The notes below the pieces were generated by a model that had not been told where the DNA came from, searched no databases, and saw nothing but the letters and a program-made list of their open reading frames with translations. DNA of 64,000 bases from Antennarius striatus. Taxonomy: Eukaryota > Chordata > Actinopteri > Lophiiformes > Antennariidae. Shown piece by piece: positions 1 through 56,163 of this stretch. Position 1 is the stretch's first letter. Every line of letters starts with the position of its first letter. The translations under genes and the position numbers were made by a program. The stretch lies in NCBI RefSeq assembly GCF_040054535.1, contig NC_090782.1, forward strand, positions 23,058,501 through 23,122,500, given 5' to 3'.

Positions 1-3000
1 TTCTACTAGTGTTGCTCCCAATTGAACTGGTAGGAGCTGAGGTGGTCATATCTGAAGTTGTGGTGCTTGGAACTGGAACTGTGGTAACCACAGTTGTGGT
101 CGTTGGGACCAGAGTATTGTGTATAATTGTGCTTGTTGGATCTCGAGTATTCATGGCTACAGTTGAGGTCTCACTGGCCACTTTAGTGGTTTCTGCACTA
201 TTAGTGGCTACTGCTGTAATCGCAGGAGTAAGAGCAGTGTCTGCATCTGTATATGTTCGACCTAAATTAGTTGTGGATGTACTTGTGGTAACAGGAGTCA
301 CAGTTGTTATTCCTGAAGTGGTAAGTTGTGTTATAGTGGCCACTTCTGTTGCTGGAGTGAGAGTGTTATCTGTAAGTGGAACGATTGTAGCTGGATTTGA
401 GGTGGATGGCATTTCAATGTTTGGAGCTAGACTTGATTCTGTATTTGTGCTGGCTTGACCCATGGTGGTGGGAGTTTGTGTTGATTTTGTGGTTGGAGCA
501 AGAGTGGTTTGGATGATTGTACCAGTTGGATTTGACATGGTGCTGGCTACAGTTGAGGTCAACGGAGTCACACTAGTGTGCTTTGCAGTCATATTGGCCA
601 CTAATGAGATCAGTGGTGCTGGAGTGGTTTCTGTCTTAGTGCTGGTTTGACCTAGAGTAGTGACGGCCACACTTGTGGTTTTTGCAGCTGTGGGGGTTGG
701 AGTTTGTGTTGTGGTGGCCACTGTTGTGGCTCCTGGAGTCAGATTGGATTCAGTAATTGTATTAATTGGGGTGAAAACTGAGTTGGGCACTGTTGATATT
801 GGTGGAGTTGAAATTTCTGTATTTGTGCTGATTTGAACTGGAGTACTGTCAGTTACACTTGTGGTTATAGGAGCTGTAGTTGTCTTGTCTGAAGTTTTAG
901 TGCCCGGAGCTAAAGTTGAGGGGATCACTGCCACCATTGTTTCAGCCAGAGGGGTTACTGTATTTCTGCTAATATGGACTAAAGTAGTGTTCACAGCACT
1001 TGTTTTTGTTGTATTTGAGGTTGTGCTGGATGACACTGTTGAGGGCACCACTGTTACTGTTTTTCCAGCCAAAGTGGTTTCTGTATTTGTGCTGGCTTGA
1101 CCCGGAGTAGAGCTAGCTGGACTTGTGATCATTGGGGCTACAGTTGCAATATTGGAATTTTTTGTGGATGGAGCGGAAATTGAGGGCACCAGTGTCATTG
1201 TTGTTTCAGCCAGAGTGATTTCAGTAATTGTGTTGGTCGTAGGTGGAGTTGAAGTGGCCTCTGTTTCAGTCATTGGTGCTGGAGGGAAGGTTTCTGTATT
1301 TGAGCTGGTTTGACCTGGAGTAGAGTGGGCTGTATTTGTGTTCATAAGAGCTGAAGTAGATGCTTCTGAAGTTGTGATTGTTACAGATGCAGGTGTGGTA
1401 ACCTCTGTTGCAGTCATGGGACCCCAATGGGTTTGTGTGATGGTGCCGGTTGGATTTGGAGTGGTGCTGGCTTCAGCTGAGGTCGTATGAGTCACACTGG
1501 TGGTTTCTGTAGATATGGTGGTCAATGTCTTGGTTGTTAGAGGAGTAATAGTGTCTGTATTTGTGTTGGAGAGAGCCGTACTGGTTCTGCCACCAGTGGA
1601 AGTGGTTGGAGCTGACGAGGTAATATCTAAAGTTGTGATTGTTGGATCTGGATTTATTGTGACCACTGCTACAGTTTTTGGAGTGGTTTCTGTATTTGTT
1701 TTGGTTTGACCTGAATTAGTGGTACCTGGACTTGTGGTCAGAGGAGCTACAGTTGTTTTATCTGATGTTGTGATGGCTGTAGATGGAATTGTGGTAGCTA
1801 TTGTTTCATGAATTGGAGGCAAATTGGTTTGTATGTCTGTAGTTGTTTGATTTGGAGTGGTGCTGGTGATAGTTGAGGTCATATGAGCCAGGGTGGTAGT
1901 TTCTCCAGCTAAATGGGACACTGTTGTGCTTGCTGTAGCTCTAATAGAGTCGGAATGTGTGCTGGATTGACCTTGAGTAACTGTGGCTGGACTTGTGGAC
2001 ATTGTGGTTGTTATTTCTGATGTTGTAAGTATTGGAATTGGAGTTAAGGTGGCCATTGCTCCAGTCATTGGAGTCAGAGTTGTGGAAAGACTTACACTGG
2101 TTTTGCCTCCAATTGAAGTGGTTGGAGCAAAAGGGGTGTCATCTATTGTGGTTGGAGCAAAAGATGTGGTGACGACCATTTTGGCTGTTGGAGCCAGAGT
2201 GGTATCTGTAATTGTACTAACTGGAGTTGGAGATGAGGTGGTCACAGTTGTTATTGTTGGAGCCAGAGTGGTTTCTGTATTTGTACTGGTTTGACCTGGA
2301 GTAGTGCTAGCTGGACTTGTGATCATTGGGGCTACAGTTGCAATTGTGGAAGTTTTGGTGGATGCATCTGAAGTCGAGGGGACCAGCGTTGCTGTTATTT
2401 CAGCCAGAGTGATTTCTGTAATTGTGCTGGTTGGAGGTAGAGCTGAAGTGGCCTCTGTTTCGGTCAATGGGGGTGGAGTCGTTTCTGTATTTGAGCTGGT
2501 TGAATCAACATTCCTTGGTGCTGAAGTGAAGGTTTCTGAAGTTTTGGTGGATGCATCTGAAGTTGAGGGTACCAGTGTTGCTATTATTTCAGCCAGAGTG
2601 ATTTCTGTAATTGTGCTGGTTGGAGGTAGAGCTGAAGTGGCCTCTGTTTCTGTCAGTGGGGGTGGAGTGGTTTCTGTATTTGAGCTGGTTTGACCTGGAG
2701 TAGAGTGTGCTGCATTTGTGGTCATAAGAGCTAGAGTTGTTGCGTCTGAAATTGTGATGGTTACAGGTGCAGATGTGGTAACCTCTGTTGCAGTCATTGG
2801 ACTCCGAGTGGTTTGTGTTATTGTGCTGGTTGGATTTGGAGTGGTGTTGACTGCAGCTGACGCCGTTTGAGACACGCTGGGGGTTTCTGTAGGTATGGTG
2901 GTCAATGTCTTAGTTGTTAGAGGAAGAGAAATGTCTGTAACTGTGCTGGATGAAGCCATACTGGTTGTTCTCCCAGTGGAAGTGGCTGGAGCTGTTGGGG

Positions 3001-4258
3001 AAATATCTGAAGTTGTGTTGGTTTGAGCAAAAAGTGGAATAGTGAGAGTGAATTCCTCCTTTGTGTTCATTTGGCCTCGCGTAGTGGTAGGTGGACTTGC
3101 GGTCAGAGGAGCTACAGTTAAATTATCTGACGTTGTGATGGCATTCATTCGGACCACACTTGGCTCCGTAATTCTTCTGGTTGAATCCACGGTCATTGTG
3201 ACCATCGCTGTGGTTGCTGGAGCTGGACTATCTTCTGTAGTGATAGATACACTTGAAGATGTGGTTGCTGTACCTTCAGATGAGGTCATAGTTATGTTTG
3301 ATCCTTAATTAACAAATAATATGACAGTAATTAATAAAACTAAACAAAGTGAGTAAAACCGCTAAATGATAAATTTATCTCATATGATGACTTTTACTAT
3401 AGAGCAATAAAACCATTACTTATTCTCTATTTGTAGTATATGTCAGTTCTGTATTAGAATATAAAATGTATCCAATTGTTAAAACAACAATCGAAAAAAT
3501 CAGAAACCTCTTTCTGTTCTGTAACCATGAGGCTTTGCTTGCTTTGTGTTTGGTGCTATTGTCTCGCTCAGAGATGGCTGGCAGGTTGAAGTGCATCAGT
3601 TTTCTATCTGTGATTTGTTATGATCTTCAGGTATATGAATGTGTTTTTTTCAATGTTAACATCAATCTAAACATTTCCTGCAATTATATAACTGATATTG
3701 CTTCAGAGCAATAATGTAATTATTTTTTCCACATTGTAGTTGAGTTTTAAGATGTGAAACAGTGGAACCTGATGCTGTCTGCAAACTGATTCCTGTTAAT
3801 GCTCCCATTTATGATTGAAACATGAAATTAATGAATGAAGGAAACATCATTCTGGCAGTCAGTGTCAGTTTGAAATTTACACCATTAATGAGCCACATCA
3901 ATCATGTTTAAAATTAATCCTCATCTATTTTTAAGGTCATAGATAACCATTTTTAGTCCAACATTTGTTTTGTATTGATTGGAGGAAATTTAATACTTGA
4001 AAATAATGTTATTTTGTTGCACTAGATGAATAGCAGAGGGTAATATTTGGTCAATATCAAATGTAAAACTACTGTTTACCTTCAGAGTACTGTTCCATTT
4101 TAGTTTGACATTATTAGACACTTGAGAAAGTAAAATATAAACAAGGAAAGCCATCAAAACCTTTCTTGTGAAGAATCTTGCAATTAAGTTTTACCTTGAA
4201 CAGAGGATGAATGTAAATATCCCATCAAAAATATCCAATAAACAGCCATCTTCTCCAT
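1..4258 (-). CDS. Mucin-like Thr/Ser/Pro-rich secreted or surface protein, 5' part (3' end outside window)
   Basis: Two exons are read on the minus strand. Exon 1 is 4258-4195: an ATG at 4258-4256, then a hydrophobic signal peptide beginning MEKMAVYWIFLMGYLHSSS, ending CAAG before the donor gtaaaa. Exon 2 starts at 3303 after ttaattaag; its first two bases complete the split Gly codon, so the phases agree. From there the frame has no TAA, TAG or TGA down to base 2, about 1,100 codons, and it leaves the window open. The composition is dominated by Thr with Ser, Pro, Val and Ala, as in mucin PTS domains; an early N-I-T sequon follows the signal peptide. A phrase like GQTSTNTE recurs. No Cys-rich, SEA, VWD or transmembrane part is in view, so membrane-bound versus secreted cannot be decided. 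I do not recognise the family member. It is divergent from ttc14. The alternative, low-complexity noncoding repeat, is unlikely given the long open frame and matching signal-peptide exon. Confidence 0.72.
2..3303 (-). repeat. Imperfect coding repeats of the mucin-like exon with higher-order duplication
   Basis: Gly-Gln marks (ttgacc on the + strand, in frame) recur near 455, 647, 1097, 1310, 1706, 1967, 2291 and 2690, at irregular spacings of about 190-400 bp. A larger duplication is visible: 1097-1310 closely matches 2291-2515, part of it is repeated again at 2515-2690, and 1310-1700 matches 2690-3010. This is what unequal crossing-over in a mucin array would give. The repeat units are diverged, not a clean satellite. 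Confidence 0.7.
3304..4194 (-). other. Intron 1 of the mucin-like gene
   Basis: AT-rich intron between the signal-peptide exon and the Thr-rich exon. The minus-strand donor is CAAG|gtaaaa at 4195/4194 and the acceptor is ttaattaag|GA at 3304/3303. An in-frame TAA lies at 3307-3305 just before the exon, which supports the acceptor as the true boundary. Nothing else is recognised inside it. Confidence 0.65.
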
Positions 4259-4363
4259 GAAAAACTGGTGTTACTTGTCAGTAGTCCAGCCACAGATAAC
4301 GTTTGTCTGAGATTGTACATTCCATTCAGGGTTTTTTTTTTTGGAAATTACTCCTCCCTCGGC

Positions 4364-4369
4364 TTTAAA
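4364..4369 (-). promoter_or_regulatory. TATA-like box upstream of the mucin-like gene
   Basis: TTTAAA on the minus strand, about 105 bp upstream of the proposed ATG at 4258. The distance fits a TSS near 4335 with a short 5' UTR. Motif match and spacing only. Confidence 0.3.
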
Positions 4370-5181
4370 GGGAGTAACAAGGCTCTGGTGAGACTGGGCA
4401 CCGTCATATAACCTGAAAAACTAGGTTGGTCAAAGTCACAGATGTATACAAAATACATGGCACTAAAACCATATCATAAAGCACATGGTAGATATAGCAA
4501 TGGCTGGATGTACGATAAACCCATTCGCTTACTGGCTGTCAGGAGTCCAACTTGAGCCTGTGAGACATGTAAAAAAAAAAATGAACATGTTTGCACAACA
4601 ATGCTTCATTGTCGTACTGGAAAAATCTTACATGCCATTTCTGTCAAATGGGATTCTGTTAGGTAAAATTACAAAGAACCTTCATCAAGTTTGGAACAAG
4701 TTTTGTTTCAGGTGACTTATTCATTAAGTACAGTTCCTATTCGCTGGTTTCATTTTTGTTGACTCTATTCTACATTATTTGTTTTTAACTCACTACTAAA
4801 GTGAACTGAGGTTAGGTGATTGCACACATTTTATTTTCCAGATATCTTGAATTTTGTTTTGACGTAGCCTCAAAACAATTTTCTGTTGTTCAGGTTCAAG
4901 TGACAATAGCTGTTGTGGAGGTGTGTGATACCTGAGTGATCTGTAGTTACTGTTGTCACTGCTTTGCTTGAATCAACAAGATGAAAACTGTAAGCTCAAC
5001 AAATAAAAATTAAATAAAATTTAACAAGGGTCTTGTGCAACCATTGGTTGTCGGTCCAATGACTTGGAAAAGGTTTTCTCTCCCTGAGCATTTATTCTTG
5101 TAAGTCAGTGCAAACTGATAATACAGTAATATTGAAATATATTCATTCATGAAGCATTTCTCAAAAGACAGTGGCAAAGTG

Positions 5182-5255
5182 TTTTACAGAATAAAACACT
5201 TCATGTTTATTCTGTAAAATGTTTTATAAATGTGAAATATTTTATATTTCACATT
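5182..5255. repeat. Two adjacent perfect inverted repeats
   Basis: First hairpin: arms TTTTACAGAATAAA at 5182-5195 and its exact reverse complement at 5206-5219, with a 10-nt loop. Second: arms AATGTGAAATA at 5229-5239 and its exact reverse complement at 5245-5255, with a 5-nt loop. Both are AT-rich. They may be remnants of a foldback or MITE-type element, or cruciform-forming DNA; no target-site duplication was identified. Confidence 0.6.
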
Positions 5256-5540
5256 CAGAAAAATGTAAATATATAAAAAAAAATTAAAAACACAAAAAAC
5301 TTGGAAAACCTGAGTGAATTCCTGCCTTTAAGAGCTCATGTATCTTCTTTCTTTTTAAATGTTTACAACTTCAAAAGTAGAAAAAAACTATTGAACTTGA
5401 TTGTTGTTTATTCTTTAATTGCTTTAAAACGACCACATATTTAATGACTGTTTTAAAACGCATTTCACAGACGCAAATAGTATTTCGTACACGGAAGAGG
5501 AGCAGACGAGCAAAAATCAGCCTTCAGTTCCTAGATGTGT

Positions 5541-6042
5541 TTCACCGGACCTTTTAAGTGTAACACATCTTGCGCATGCGTACTCGTCCATATGTGTTAT
5601 TCTCGGAGTGTGAGTAACGCTAACAGGTTGAGTTTGCAGCCAAAGCGCAGTTTTGCGCATGTTAAACGATAGTTGTGTATTGCGAAATCAATTAAATTCA
5701 CAGATTTAAAATAATAAGAACTATTGCGAGTTTTTAAAGATTAGCCAACATTATCATGACGAACCAGTGTTAGCTAGCTAGCTAGCTAGCTAAAAATGCA
5801 TTGCTAACAACGTCACATCCATACTACCTTATTTATGATTCAGTTTTCTAAATAATCCAATGTTTTACGACTCGATACACAACTCTGACAGATTGAAGTG
5901 CCTCCTAGAGAGAAATTAAATTGTCTCTACAACAAGGAAAATGTCACATTTGTTAAATTTGGGCTAGCTTGAGCTAACCTATGGCTTCAACAGGCTGCTC
6001 CAGATATACCTCGTGTTGTGATGTGACTGTAGTCCTCTGAAA
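5541..6042 (+). promoter_or_regulatory. ttc14: ttc14 promoter / 5' UTR region with NRF1 motif
   Basis: The region holds a perfect NRF1-type palindrome TGCGCATGCG at 5571-5580 and a second half-like site, TGCGCATG, near 5654, typical of TATA-less housekeeping promoters. A (GCTA)n run lies at 5772-5792. The ttc14 ATG follows at 6043. The TSS is not determinable by eye. Confidence 0.45.
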
Positions 6043-9000
6043 ATGGACAGAGATTTGTTGAGGCAGTGTCTGGCCTATCACGGAGAACCATTACTCAACA
6101 AACTGAATTGTGAGCAGACAGAAAACCCAGACTTCCAGGCTGTGGTGTCGGATTTGGGCAAGACCACGTATGAGAGGTAAGTGTGCAAGGTCTGATGTCA
6201 GCTTTCACAAGTTCACAAGCCTCCCCCATCCACTCTTGTTACCCCTTAACTATTTAAAAAATTGGTATGCATTGGAGTTGGCAATGAATTTCTGCAAGAA
6301 CTCAGCGTTTTCCTCTCCTTCATTTTTTTGAAATGTGTGTTTTTTGAGTAGTAATGGTGATGGACGTGGGAACCCGCTGGTAGAGCAGTTCATCGCCAGG
6401 AAGGCTGATATCCTGTTCTGTCCGACATGGAAAACTGCCACCCATCAAGAAGAGGACTACGAGGAGGAGGAAGAGGCGGCAGGTTTGTGTGGATTCAGTC
6501 TCACCTCTGGTTCTGTTCACAGCAAACTCTGAAAAATATTCCTTTTGTAAAGATTTCTATCGATCTTGAGCCACTTCTACATCTACTTCTGTCAAAGTTT
6601 GTTAAAATAGAAAAACATGTTGATTCTGACAGATGGTGGTGTGTGATTTGCAGCTTAACGTCTGTGGTGTCAGTGTATACAGTTCGTGTTGAAGGCAGTG
6701 AAATGCATCTTTGCTTTCCCAGAGCCTTGTGCCGTCATGCCGCCGTTGGAGTTATTCATGGAGGTGTCTTTCGAGGAAAGAAGAGCCATGCTGTACAGGG
6801 ACTTGGAAAGAGGAGATATTGTGGTGGGAAGGATCAACAACATACGAGAATACGGTTTCTTTCTCACTCTGCTTTGCACGGCAGTTGGACTAAAGAGAGA
6901 CATAGAAGACCTGGAGCTGTCGGTAAGTCGACCAGCTAAATCTGTTGGATGTTCTTCAACTACGTTGGATCAGATCAAAACCAATGAGACACCTACCGTT
7001 AATGTAAAAACATTTGTATGCATTGCATAACTTGGTTTTTTTTTTTATTTGTCACAACCGCCTGCCTGATGGATCAAAACAAAACGTGTGAACGCCGTCC
7101 ACATTTTCAAACAATTGTGTGACACATACAGAAACACGTACATCAGTTTTCCTGCAGTTTCATGTGACAACCATTTAGTTTGTGACCTCTTAGCGGCTAG
7201 CTCGCTACCCGATACCATCCTTCCCCTTTCCAACTGTTTCCTGACTTTACACAGCTATTGTTTAACAACGGCTCAAGTGTCCCCCCCCAAAAAATTAAAT
7301 GTTATTAAATCTTAATTTTCCTTTTCTTTTGTATGCACAGGCTCTGTGTCATATCAAAGAAATTCCCTCCACTGGCAGCCATGATGATCCTCTGTCCTAC
7401 TACCAGATCGGGGACTTTATCAGAGGTTAGTGTCTGTTGGATTTGTCTGTAACACCCAAACTTCTTTGGAGGTTTTTTGAGTTTATGCTTTGGTAGCTTC
7501 TCACTCGCGCAGCTTCTATTATTTCAGCTACATCAGAGGCACCGATGCAAATAAACAAAGCTACGTGTGTTTTTATCGCTACAGAGTTCATTATCATCAG
7601 ACATGATGCTACGTCATGAAATGAGTTCTACTGTTTGGCTTGTTCTTGTCATGACGGAGGTTAAAATCATTTCATGTCAGACCTTTTCAGATGAATTAAG
7701 GCCTTCCTCGTTGTATTGCAAAGAACCGTGCAGTGTTTTGTTAACTGATTTGGTTTCAAAGTCAGGTATGAATCTTGCATTGTTCTGTAATCACACACTG
7801 TGACCAATGCACAACCGTTTAGTTTGGTAGTTGTTTTTGCTCTCCCTCTGTACGATACCAGTTTCTAACTTGGTAGCTGGACATGTGAATGATGATTGTG
7901 GCTAATTAATGTTGCACATCGATTATTTTTTTATTTATTCTTGTTTTTTCATCTCCCATCTTCTGTACATTCTCCTTTTATAGCTGCAGTGAAAGATATT
8001 GACCGTTACCAGGAGAAAATCACAGTTTCCCTCCTGCAGGCTTCTGTTTCTCCCAGACTGCAACACGTCAAACTGGGAGTCGTTGCCCGGGAGGAGCTTC
8101 CTGTCCATTACAGGTAAGTACACAATGTGACATGACAACACACTCAACAAAGGTGTGTTTAAACACACAACATGTGAAAAGAATGAATAATGAATGGCAG
8201 CAGTGTTTCTCTGTCAGCTACATATTCAGCTGATTTCATTTTTGACTGAAAAGAAAGTAAAGACATCCTCTCCTCTCCTCTTAGTCGTAGCGTTCGCGCA
8301 GCCGCAGACTCCAGCGAGACATACGAGCGGATACTGATGGGTTGCCATGGTTACCACAACCCTTCTGTAGTGGACTACCTGCTGGATAAGGTGGGAATTA
8401 GCGACACCCGCCCACCCTCGGCAATGAGAGGACTACAAAGGTAAAGACATCAGCAGACGCTTCACTGGAAGAACATTTGTGGTCTAATCAGGAGTGTAGG
8501 GATCGATCGGGGATCGCAAGAAGTCTTCTATCATCTAGTCAACAATTCTTTTATTTCCTTGATCGTCTGTTTGAGGTTTAGTGAAAACAAATTTAAGTCT
8601 GCACTGTTTTGTTTGACGCACGGAAGGCATTTGAAAACCAAACGACAAACCGTGAAACACAGAATTATGGGAGGGTTTTAGTTTTAGAATTGATTTTAGT
8701 CTCTGTTAGCTCAGTGTTTTTCATCACTTTAATATCTATCATCATCTTTTCTCCACAGTAAACTTTTCCAAGAGGAGGATTTTGCCTCCGTGATCAGGAA
8801 GAAACAGTCTGCATCGTGGGCCTTGAAGTGGTAAAAATAAAATTTAAACTTTGACCTCAGAGAGTTTCAAATCATCCTGATTCACCTTCAGCGTCTCTTT
8901 GTTCACTGTTTCTGACATCACTGACATCACCTCGTCTGTCTGCGGTCTCTTAGTGTCCGTGCAGGCGTGGACCACTTCAAACATGGCCGACACGTGGAAG

Positions 9001-9438
9001 CCATGAATGAATACAACAAGGCCTTGGATATCGACACTAATAACGTGGAAGCTCTGGTGGCACGAGGAGCTCTGTGAGTGTCCTGTTACCCAACCTGCTA
9101 ACGGGGTTTTTTGTTTCTTCAGTTTCTCTTCCACCTTAGACTTTGCAATCCTCCCTAATGCATCTCCAGTGATCGGATTCTCTCTGCGTCTCTGATTTTA
9201 ACTCACAGGTACGCTAACAAAGGTAGCATTGTGAAAGCTATAACGGACTTTGAGCTGGCTCTGGAGAACTGTCCAGATCACCGCAACGCCAAGAAGTATC
9301 TGTGCCAGACGCTGGTGGAGCGAGGAAAGCAGTGAGCAGCAGAGCCTTTGATATTCAGTGATACAGCTGTGAAATTCATTACATCTGGTACTGATCTGTG
9401 TGTGTTTGTTTGTGTGTGTGTGTGTGTGCGTGTGTGTG

Positions 9439-9491
<53 letters not shown>

Positions 9492-9626
9492 CTAGGCTGG
9501 AAGAACAGGAGAAACTTGTGACAGCGGAGGGTTTGTACAGAAGAGCTCTGTCTCTCGATGATTTGAACCTGGAGGCGCAGGAAGCTCTTCACAAGATCAC
9601 AGAAACGATACAGGTGAGGAGCCACA

Positions 9627-9659
<33 letters not shown>

Positions 9660-11749
9660 TGGAGTCAGCGGGGATGAAGCCTTATTTGTTTTTGAACTTT
9701 GATATTAAACTAGTCTGTGGTTTGTAATACTGATGAAGTGTTTTCGTGTGTGTGTGTGTCTGCGACCCTGCGACGCTGCCCTTTGACCCTCCGACTGCCA
9801 CGGTCTTGTCACCTGCTCTGTGGGGGGGGTGAAAAAAATAAACTGCACCCTGACGACGACTCCTCCCCTGGACGCTGTGGTGCGTTGTGTCCCTGGTATC
9901 ACTACGGTAACGTTGAACCCTTCTCTATGTCGATGGGGAACAAACACTCTCTCTTTCCTCTGCATATCCATCCGTACCTCTGTCCATCTATCCTGTTGCT
10001 ATGCCAACCACGTCCTTCTTGCATTACGCCACTTCTTTGGTGAATAAATCGCTTTCTGCTTTTTCTTCGATCATTTTGTCATTGGTGTTATTTTGTTGTG
10101 ACGCCCTTCTCATGCCTTCGGCTTCCCAAACCCCCCCTGCATACGTTTTTAATTTAACACGAATGACTGAATCGATGAACCAACGCCTCGGGTCTTTGGC
10201 CTTTTATGTGTTTGAATGTCTCTGTGGACTTTTTGCCTGCCAATATCACGTCTTGCCTCGCCTCGCCTGACTAACGTAAAGAAATCGATTCGCCTGCGAG
10301 AAGAGGCGCTGGCGAAGGAGCAGGTGAAAGCTTCCAGCAGCCAGACCAGCGCCGACAAATTGCGTAAGATCTTAAAAGAAGAGAAGAGGTGAGTTTGCTC
10401 TGATCTTTTCAAGGTTAAATTCAGACTCGCCCCCATAACGATGGAAAATCGGGAGGGGGTGACATTTTGCAGTCGGAAAAGCATTCTGGAGCCACAGTGA
10501 AACAGTGCTTTAGCATTTCCGAGATCAGCTGATGCACGGTAACGTGTGCAAAAAAGCTGTAGATCCGATGGAGACGGATCTAAGATTTGCATTGATTCCA
10601 GGTTCTTGTTGAAAATGTGAAAATTCTGCAACACTGTTTCGCTGTGATGCTTTCAAGATGTTTTGTCCACAAAGTCATTTTTTACCTGAGTTTAGAAGAT
10701 AAAACCGGAGTTATTCAAAAAATGATCATCTCAGAATGTCAGCATCAAAATCTTCAGTAAATGTCTCTTGCAGGATGAAGAAAAAACGCAAGAGGTCGGC
10801 CTCTTCCTCTTCGTCATCCTCTGCTTCCTCCAGGAGGAGCTACTCCTCCTCGTCCTCTTCCTCCTCTCGCAGGAGATCGAAAAAGAAGAAAAAGAAGAAG
10901 AGGGGAAGTAAGCACCATCGCAGGATCTCCTCACGGGAGAGCAGGAGGAGTAAGGAGGGTAAGAGCGAGAGAGACAGGAAGGAGGAAGAGGAGGAGGAGG
11001 AGGAGTGGTGTCCTGCACCTCCCAACACCTCTGCCACCTTTCTCAATCAGAAAGGAGTCCTGGCGTTTGGAGAGAGTGATGAGTATGAGGCAGAGGAGAA
11101 GGATGCTGATGAGAGAAGGATCAGTCGGCTCTATTCTCTGTCAGCAGCTTCAAATGACGAGGATTCGGACTCGTCACGCAGGGTGAGGAGGAAGAGGAGG
11201 GACAGCGAGGGGAAGCAGGGGAGGAGACGCGACAACAGTGTGAGCAGAAGCCCTGAAAGAGGGGAGAGGAGTGGAGAAAGGAAGGAGAAAAGCAGGGAGA
11301 GAGGGAAGGAGGACAGCAGGAGGTGGAGAGTAGACGAGCAAAGGAGGAGGAAAGTGTCTTCCTCCTCCACAGAGTCGGAGTATTCACGGAAATCTAGTAT
11401 CAAATCTGAATATTTGGGGAACTCCGGCTCTGCATCCAAACATTCAGAGGGTAGGATGAGACACGACTCCTTTAGGAGGAACTCCTTTGAGGGCAGCAGG
11501 TACGAGAGGAGAGGCCAGGAGGAGAATCAGAGGGAAGGAGAAGCAAAAGGAGAGGAGTGGGGGAAAGGGAAAGCAGAGGAAGAGAGCAGGTCAGAGGGAG
11601 GAAACCCGTGCGGAGCTCAGGAGCAGAGGGGTCTGACCTCCACGCCAGGAGGAGGAGGAGGAGCTAAAAAAAACCTCCCTACCAACTTGTTGGACATTTT
11701 TAATCAGATCGCCCAGTTTGAGAAGGAGAAGGGAGTCAGGCCAAAATGA
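6043..11749 (+). CDS. ttc14: Tetratricopeptide repeat protein 14 (12 coding exons)
   Basis: Exons: 6043-6176, 6352-6482, 6723-6922, 7341-7425, 7984-8113, 8285-8440, 8759-8830, 8954-9073, 9209-9331, 9496-9613, 10282-10388, 10774-11749; 2,352 nt, 783 residues, close to human TTC14 (about 770). All introns are GT-AG and all phases join. The N-terminus [18 protein letters not shown] matches the family. Residues about 119-205 form an S1 RNA-binding domain ([18 protein letters not shown] onward). Residues about 304-420 carry TPR motifs (exons 8-10). The last exon encodes a Ser/Arg/Lys/Glu-rich tail with RS-like and poly-Glu runs, ending in GVRPK. The conserved phrase PANTSA-type (here [12 protein letters not shown]) lies within the tail. 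The S1, TPR and RS-like parts suggest a nuclear RNA-associated protein; its exact role is poorly known. Open frame before 10774 in the last exon is intronic, not an alternative start. Confidence 0.95.
9396..9489. repeat. (TG)n microsatellite abutting ttc14 exon 10 acceptor
   Basis: TG dinucleotides with a few interruptions run to base 9489, followed by atctag and exon 10 at 9496. The array fills the place of a normal polypyrimidine tract. Confidence 0.95.
9627..9655. repeat. (AC)n microsatellite in ttc14 intron 10
   Basis: About 14 AC units that begin roughly 14 bp after the exon 10 donor at 9613. Confidence 0.9.

Positions 11750-25527: not shown

Positions 25528-25713
<186 letters not shown>

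Positions 25714-28310: not shown

Positions 28311-36462
<8,152 letters not shown>

Positions 36463-52310: not shown

Positions 52311-53379
<1,069 letters not shown>

Positions 53380-56007: not shown

Positions 56008-56163
<156 letters not shown>

Follow-up and report, generated by a model that had tools for sequence, protein, structure and literature searches.

Mucin genes have been defined by the combination of a region rich in Pro, Thr and Ser (PTS) with a VWD or SEA domain, MUC7 and MUC20 being the exceptions (Lang et al., PMC1552070). The gene considered here lies on the minus strand at the left edge of a 64,000-nucleotide stretch of the genome of the frogfish Antennarius striatus (assembly GCF_040054535.1, contig NC_090782.1, positions 23,058,501 to 23,122,500; this whole stretch is referred to as the window, and positions are given in its numbering). 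Its giant PTS exon and a predicted signal-peptide exon upstream probably constitute the N-terminal part of a mucin, that is, of a secreted or membrane-tethered glycoprotein. The features of the locus are the following:

1..3303, minus strand: giant Thr/Ser/Pro-rich exon, stop-free, Cys-free, with diverged internal repeats, continuing past the window edge
3304..4194, minus strand: predicted intron 1, 891 nt, with GT at 4194-4193 and AG at 3305-3304
4195..4258, minus strand: predicted first coding exon, 64 nt, with an ATG, 21 signal-peptide-like codons plus 1 nt, and a phase-1 GT donor
4362..4369, minus strand: TATA-like TTTAAAGC, a consensus match and possible core promoter ~110 nt upstream of the predicted ATG

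In MUC3A and MUC3B the signal peptide is encoded by a short exon 1. Their PTS regions are each described as occupying a single giant exon 2 (15.9 and 39.3 kb) made up of imperfect and perfect repeats (PMC9578598). The frogfish gene resembles them in what would be one giant PTS exon near the N-terminus, a trait of the SEA-type membrane mucins to which MUC3A and MUC3B belong (the frogfish splice is predicted, and the far end of the exon lies beyond the window). No sequence similarity to them is seen, and the chromosomal setting differs: the human genes, at 7q22, lie at the ACHE-TRIM56-SERPINE1 locus, the frogfish gene at a TTC14-FXR1-DNAJC19 locus. MUC3A and MUC3B continue into a SEA domain, a transmembrane segment and a cytoplasmic tail; the counterpart region of the frogfish gene would fall beyond base 1.

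Human and chicken MUC4 are reported to have an N-terminal signal sequence and a large PTS region (PMC1552070), in the order that is also predicted for the frogfish gene. The human gene lies at 3q29 together with MUC20 (PMC13345508). The AMOP, VWD, EGF and transmembrane domains of MUC4 are, in contrast, not visible in the frogfish window. The likeness to MUC7, a secreted mucin, is of a different kind, and consists of subexonic PTS repeats whose Thr/Ser content is kept while their sequence drifts, as in the frogfish exon. MUC7 is much smaller than the frogfish gene. In its repeats nonsynonymous change is reported to track synonymous change with numbers of Thr and Ser kept, and its emergence is placed in placental mammals (PMC4997351). 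The frogfish gene is set apart from MUC7 by this mammalian origin, and no homology between the two is seen. The fish lateral-line Mucin-5AC (si:dkey-205h13.2), likewise a fish mucin with a signal peptide and presumably secreted, was considered and rejected as a counterpart: it is built on CysD domains, of which 2-27 are reported (PMC11765562), whereas the 1,100 residues of the frogfish exon include no Cys and accordingly none of the cysteine-rich modules that separate PTS stretches in gel-forming and CysD-containing mucins.

An open frame of mucin-domain composition

A preliminary description of this locus had claimed a stop-free minus-strand frame from 3303 to base 2. That frame indeed has no stop across its 1,100 codons, as against 16, 36, 66, 73 and 91 stops in the remaining five frames of the same region, and at 1,101 codons it is the longest stop-to-stop stretch of the 64-kb window (the runner-up has 348). 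The frame runs off the window edge and is therefore missed in the default list of complete open reading frames (ORFs), which holds none of at least 150 residues over 1-4300; a list that allows open ends recovers it. Its invisibility to complete-ORF searches had also been claimed, as had the presence of only short Val-rich shadow frames on the plus strand opposite, and both claims hold (the longest shadow frame has 151 codons).

Neutral drift was simulated as random substitution starting from the present exon sequence, with all sites alike, which makes the result a guide and not an exact test. At 0.11, 0.15 and 0.20 substitutions per site the mean numbers of stops are 6.3, 8.7 and 10.9, and at each of these levels 0 of 300 simulated sequences remain stop-free. 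A repeat simulation (100 runs per level) gives means of 6.5, 10.8 and 15.2 stops at 0.11, 0.20 and 0.30 per site, with minima of 0, 5 and 5, respectively. Judged by these simulations, the openness of the frame exceeds chance. Composition is also eroded by simulated drift: at 0.20 per site the Thr plus Ser content drops from 44% to 36%.

The residues encoded by the PTS exon are 31.4% Thr, 12.7% Ser and 9.2% Pro, and the visible protein has 485 Ser/Thr in all. Thr and Ser together make up 44% of the PTS frame, compared with 6-20% in the other frames. Under a published rule for PTS domains (more than 40% Ser/Thr and at least 5% Pro per 100 residues; PMC5728529), 886 of 1,023 overlapping 100-residue segments qualify. 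The enrichment is evenly spread, in the sense that each of 11 blocks of 100 codons has 39-48 Thr plus Ser and the longest run free of both is 8 residues. By its Ser/Thr and Pro content, and by repeats in which the Ser/Thr content is kept, the exon would encode a PTS (mucin) domain.

Frame maintenance among diverged repeats

The exon has been pieced together by duplications of long standing. Exon positions 160-790 and 1525-2173 are 78% identical in self-alignment, and a tandem unit of 63 residues lies at window positions 2349-2690. DNA identity in self-alignments of more than 150 columns is between 56 and 78%, in a frame that is still stop-free. The two aligned copies are in the same frame in 77 of 78 self-alignments, an outcome that codon periodicity favours. 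The best self-alignments (at least 68% identity over at least 100 nt) are in frame in nine cases out of nine, with net indels that are multiples of 3; in one self-alignment pair, gaps of 4 and 17 add up to 21.

Thus frame and Ser/Thr content are kept while individual residues vary. Maintenance of a glycosylatable composition, rather than of a sequence, fits a translated mucin domain. The mucin-like character attributed to the locus in the preliminary description is upheld by this keeping of frame during repeat divergence, together with the composition, the share of qualifying PTS segments and the predicted layout of signal peptide and PTS region.

The predicted signal-peptide exon

The exon at 4258-4195 encodes MEKMAVYWIFLMGYLHSSSVQ plus 1 nt, and ends at the donor AAG/GTAAAA. 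Its final G and the first two nucleotides (GA) of the PTS exon form a split Gly codon, and the phase-1 donor is in this way compatible with the acceptor at 3304/3303. An in-frame TAA at 3307-3305 immediately precedes this acceptor, and the PTS frame must therefore be entered there. (An alternative AG 36 nt upstream, with pyrimidines at 12 of 15 positions compared with 10 of 15 for the AG at 3305-3304, was rejected as acceptor since it would carry that TAA in frame.)

ATG-to-GT exons in the right phase were sought at a minimum donor-matrix score of 3.0 and a minimum hydrophobicity of 2.0. In 3304-6400 the sole qualifying splice unit is 4258-4195, within which the ATG at 4249 is an alternative start. 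These thresholds were chosen after the candidate was known, just under its own values of 3.04 and 2.10. First-order Markov sequences contain a candidate of the same grade in 8 cases out of 500. Over the 1.8 kb between the predicted ATG and the TTC14 start there are nine matches of the TATA type, the element at 4362-4369 being one of them. The exon is moderately better than chance, and its signal peptide is a reasonable prediction and no more. All the elements that had been described for this 64-nt exon (its ATG, a signal peptide and a donor of fitting phase) are present, the signal peptide as a prediction of that strength.

Searches for relatives

A search with signal peptide and repeats, which had been proposed in the preliminary description for other teleost proteomes, was made in a database of 5.8 billion proteins, in which lengths of ~617-1,963 residues were eligible (a rule of 0.55-1.75 times the query). 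Within that range no homologue was found: none of 7,987 candidates scored against the whole joined protein reaches E<=0.001, and none of 356 scored against its first 120 residues reaches E<=1. In a control search with TTC14 (an approximate protein joined from window exons), 7,998 proteins were scored and 535 of them reach E<=1e-5, the best being that of Antennarius striatus; the database thus does contain many fish proteins. The absence of a homologue is weak evidence, because the length limit and the biased, low-complexity composition both lower the power of the search.

Pfam scanning finds no VWD or SEA domain in the visible exon (the C-terminal part of the protein would lie beyond the window). 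Of the 18 minus-strand ORFs of 35 residues or more between the PTS exon and TTC14, 10 were scanned, and no VWD domain was found in these; DUF7769 and a Kazal domain were each matched below the curated cut-off, and both matches are taken as chance. A scan of the window against Rfam gives nothing at the gathering score.

Points against the assignment, and alternatives

Several observations weigh against a mucin gene under selection. Residue identity in the repeats is under no purifying selection: the ratio of nonsynonymous to synonymous change (dN/dS) between internal copies is 0.98, 0.71, 0.73, 1.34 and 1.41 in five partly overlapping pairs, and there is no third-position excess, with 169, 190 and 173 differences at codon positions 1, 2 and 3 of 727 codon pairs. 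(Eight pairs were run. Two of them, 351-1161 with a ratio of 0.88 and 461-1617 without a ratio, are not used, the protein aligner having misaligned them; the most distant pair, 823-1957 with a ratio of 0.90, stands outside the five.) At a value of about 1, dN/dS was set aside as a decisive coding test. Frame disruption in related species, with no purifying selection on the signal-peptide exon, had been named beforehand as grounds for refutation; a test by purifying selection calls for caution, in that among the repeats constraint on residues is lacking and the frame is kept. A very recently silenced mucin would show an identical pattern. As to composition, 137 of the 1,023 segments fall below the PTS cut-off, 67 of them at the N-terminus (segments 1-66 and 68) and 70 scattered, with 37-40% Ser/Thr; none of the 137 misses the Pro threshold. 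The lack of a homologue among scored candidates counts in the same direction, weakly, and scans of the PTS exon against Pfam, NCBIfam and PDB give no match. In the case of the first exon, candidates of the same grade turn up in 5 of 114 1-kb slices taken elsewhere in the window, other thresholds change this to between 1 and 20 of 114, and 4258-4195 fails the strictest hydrophobicity tried; its donor is mediocre, and the pyrimidine tract of the acceptor is modest.

The protein could be something other than a mucin, namely a surface protein with a mucin-like stalk (an adhesion G protein-coupled receptor, a sialomucin of the CD34/podocalyxin type or some other receptor), whose functional domain would lie to the left of the window. 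Stalked receptors and sialomucins likewise bear long Ser/Thr-rich stretches after a signal peptide, only the N-terminal part of the frogfish protein is visible, and no domain is seen in that part. Most such stalks are, on the other hand, shorter than 1,100 residues, and a region of this length or more would still act as a mucin domain, so that this alternative is judged unlikely.

There is a similarly small chance that the PTS exon is real and the first exon wrong, the protein being started by another upstream signal-peptide exon or at another start. The frequency of comparable candidates in unrelated slices speaks for this possibility; against it are the position of 4258-4195 as the only qualifying splice unit, its right phase and the TATA-like element upstream. 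These assessments overlap, since a mucin could also have a different first exon.

A mucin gene that died recently, or a repeat that is not expressed, with a frame kept open until not long ago, would account for the dN/dS of about 1 between copies, for the lack of a homologue among scored candidates and for a first exon near chance level. But no stop or net frameshift occurs across 3.3 kb, and drift at only 0.05 substitutions per site already yields a mean of 3.3 stops (100 runs, minimum 0, maximum 9), so that any death must have been recent. A dead gene is accordingly considered rather improbable. A fragment of a gel-forming mucin (MUC2/MUC5/MUC6/MUC19 type), with VWD domains in unrecognised exons, would explain the long PTS exon but is hardly credible in view of the absence of Cys, the absence of VWD from the upstream ORFs scanned, and the 2.7 kb between PTS exon and TTC14 ATG, which, by the sizes of gel-forming mucin genes, is too small for N-terminal VWD domains.

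What the probable mucin gene would make

The locus is probably a protein-coding gene of a familiar mucin kind, perhaps a lineage-specific one. Within that kind, the predicted exon order makes a membrane-tethered mucin or a simple secreted one likely. Gel-forming mucins have VWD domains before the PTS region; here the signal peptide is predicted to run straight into the PTS region, and a gel-forming mucin is disfavoured because of this. If transcribed and spliced as predicted, the gene would give rise to a chain directed into the endoplasmic reticulum by its signal peptide. Golgi GalNAc-transferases would then O-glycosylate a large share of its Ser and Thr residues, and, crowded with glycans, the chain, which lacks Cys, would be drawn out and form a stiff, hydrated brush at the surface of an epithelium. 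An anchor (a SEA domain with transmembrane segment, a glycosylphosphatidylinositol attachment, or none) would be encoded beyond the window, and with it the choice between secretion and the cell surface. Public RNA sequencing data from 13 tissues, ovary not among them, are reported for Antennarius striatus (PMC11192929; BioProject PRJNA1078610, assembly JBANDW000000000).

The neighbouring genes

The mucin-like gene points away from TTC14, and their start codons are 1.8 kb apart. TTC14, FXR1 and DNAJC19, which form a conserved vertebrate block, were located with human sequences:

6043..11746, plus strand: TTC14, the divergent neighbour, placed by alignment to Antennarius striatus TTC14
28311-36144, plus strand: FXR1, from the human query; Pfam PF12235, E 5.5e-27
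39419-38804, minus strand: DNAJC19, from the human query

The human TTC14 query matches exons at 6043-9332 on the plus strand. The Antennarius striatus protein aligns over residues 1-783. Mismatches are confined to exon edges, where the adjoining exon matches, and to residue 303, whose codon is split; a low-identity match of the Ser/Arg-rich part is spurious and was disregarded. This near-complete identity assigns the window to the striated frogfish (Lophiiformes) or an extremely close relative, and bears out the fish origin presumed in the preliminary description. CCDC39, which in the human genome lies between TTC14 and FXR1, has no match at E<=1 anywhere in the window when a human query is used.

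CA/GT dinucleotide arrays are numerous and long, with up to 92 copies (9397-9489, 9623-9659, 25528-25711, 52312-52463, 56010-56162 and others), and one such array lies on either side of the TTC14 exon at 9494-9613. Upstream of TTC14 there is a perfect TAGC tandem of 22 nt at 5771-5792, surrounded by a CpG-richer stretch at 5501-6000 (observed/expected CpG, 0.87).

In turbot, fxr1, dnajc19 and sox2 are placed within the sex-determining region (PMC4199694). The word 'mucin' is absent from the main text of two turbot papers on the fxr1-dnajc19-sox2 region and of the frogfish genome paper (PMC11192929), and a literature search joining mucin, teleost and ttc14 found nothing.

Implications

Long, repetitive PTS exons make it easy for annotation to miss or break mucin genes. 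The maintenance of frame among repeat copies can back a coding call where conservation of residues cannot.

A more far-reaching proposal is that of a lineage-specific orphan mucin, unrelated to any named one, which would have originated beside TTC14 in the anglerfish lineage when Thr-rich repeats expanded behind a signal peptide, and which would have been put to use in a mucus peculiar to anglerfishes. One example of such a mucus is the gelatinous veil in which the eggs of Lophiiformes are reported to be enclosed (PMC12186722). A role of this sort is compatible with the data, which give it no direct support, and the proposal as a whole is regarded as very unlikely. If the assignment to a mucin-type gene is true, a mucin-like gene without recognised relatives beside the conserved TTC14/FXR1/DNAJC19 block would be a further case of mucins arising anew or diverging past recognition, and its product could be a component of the mucosa or of the egg coat of the frogfish.

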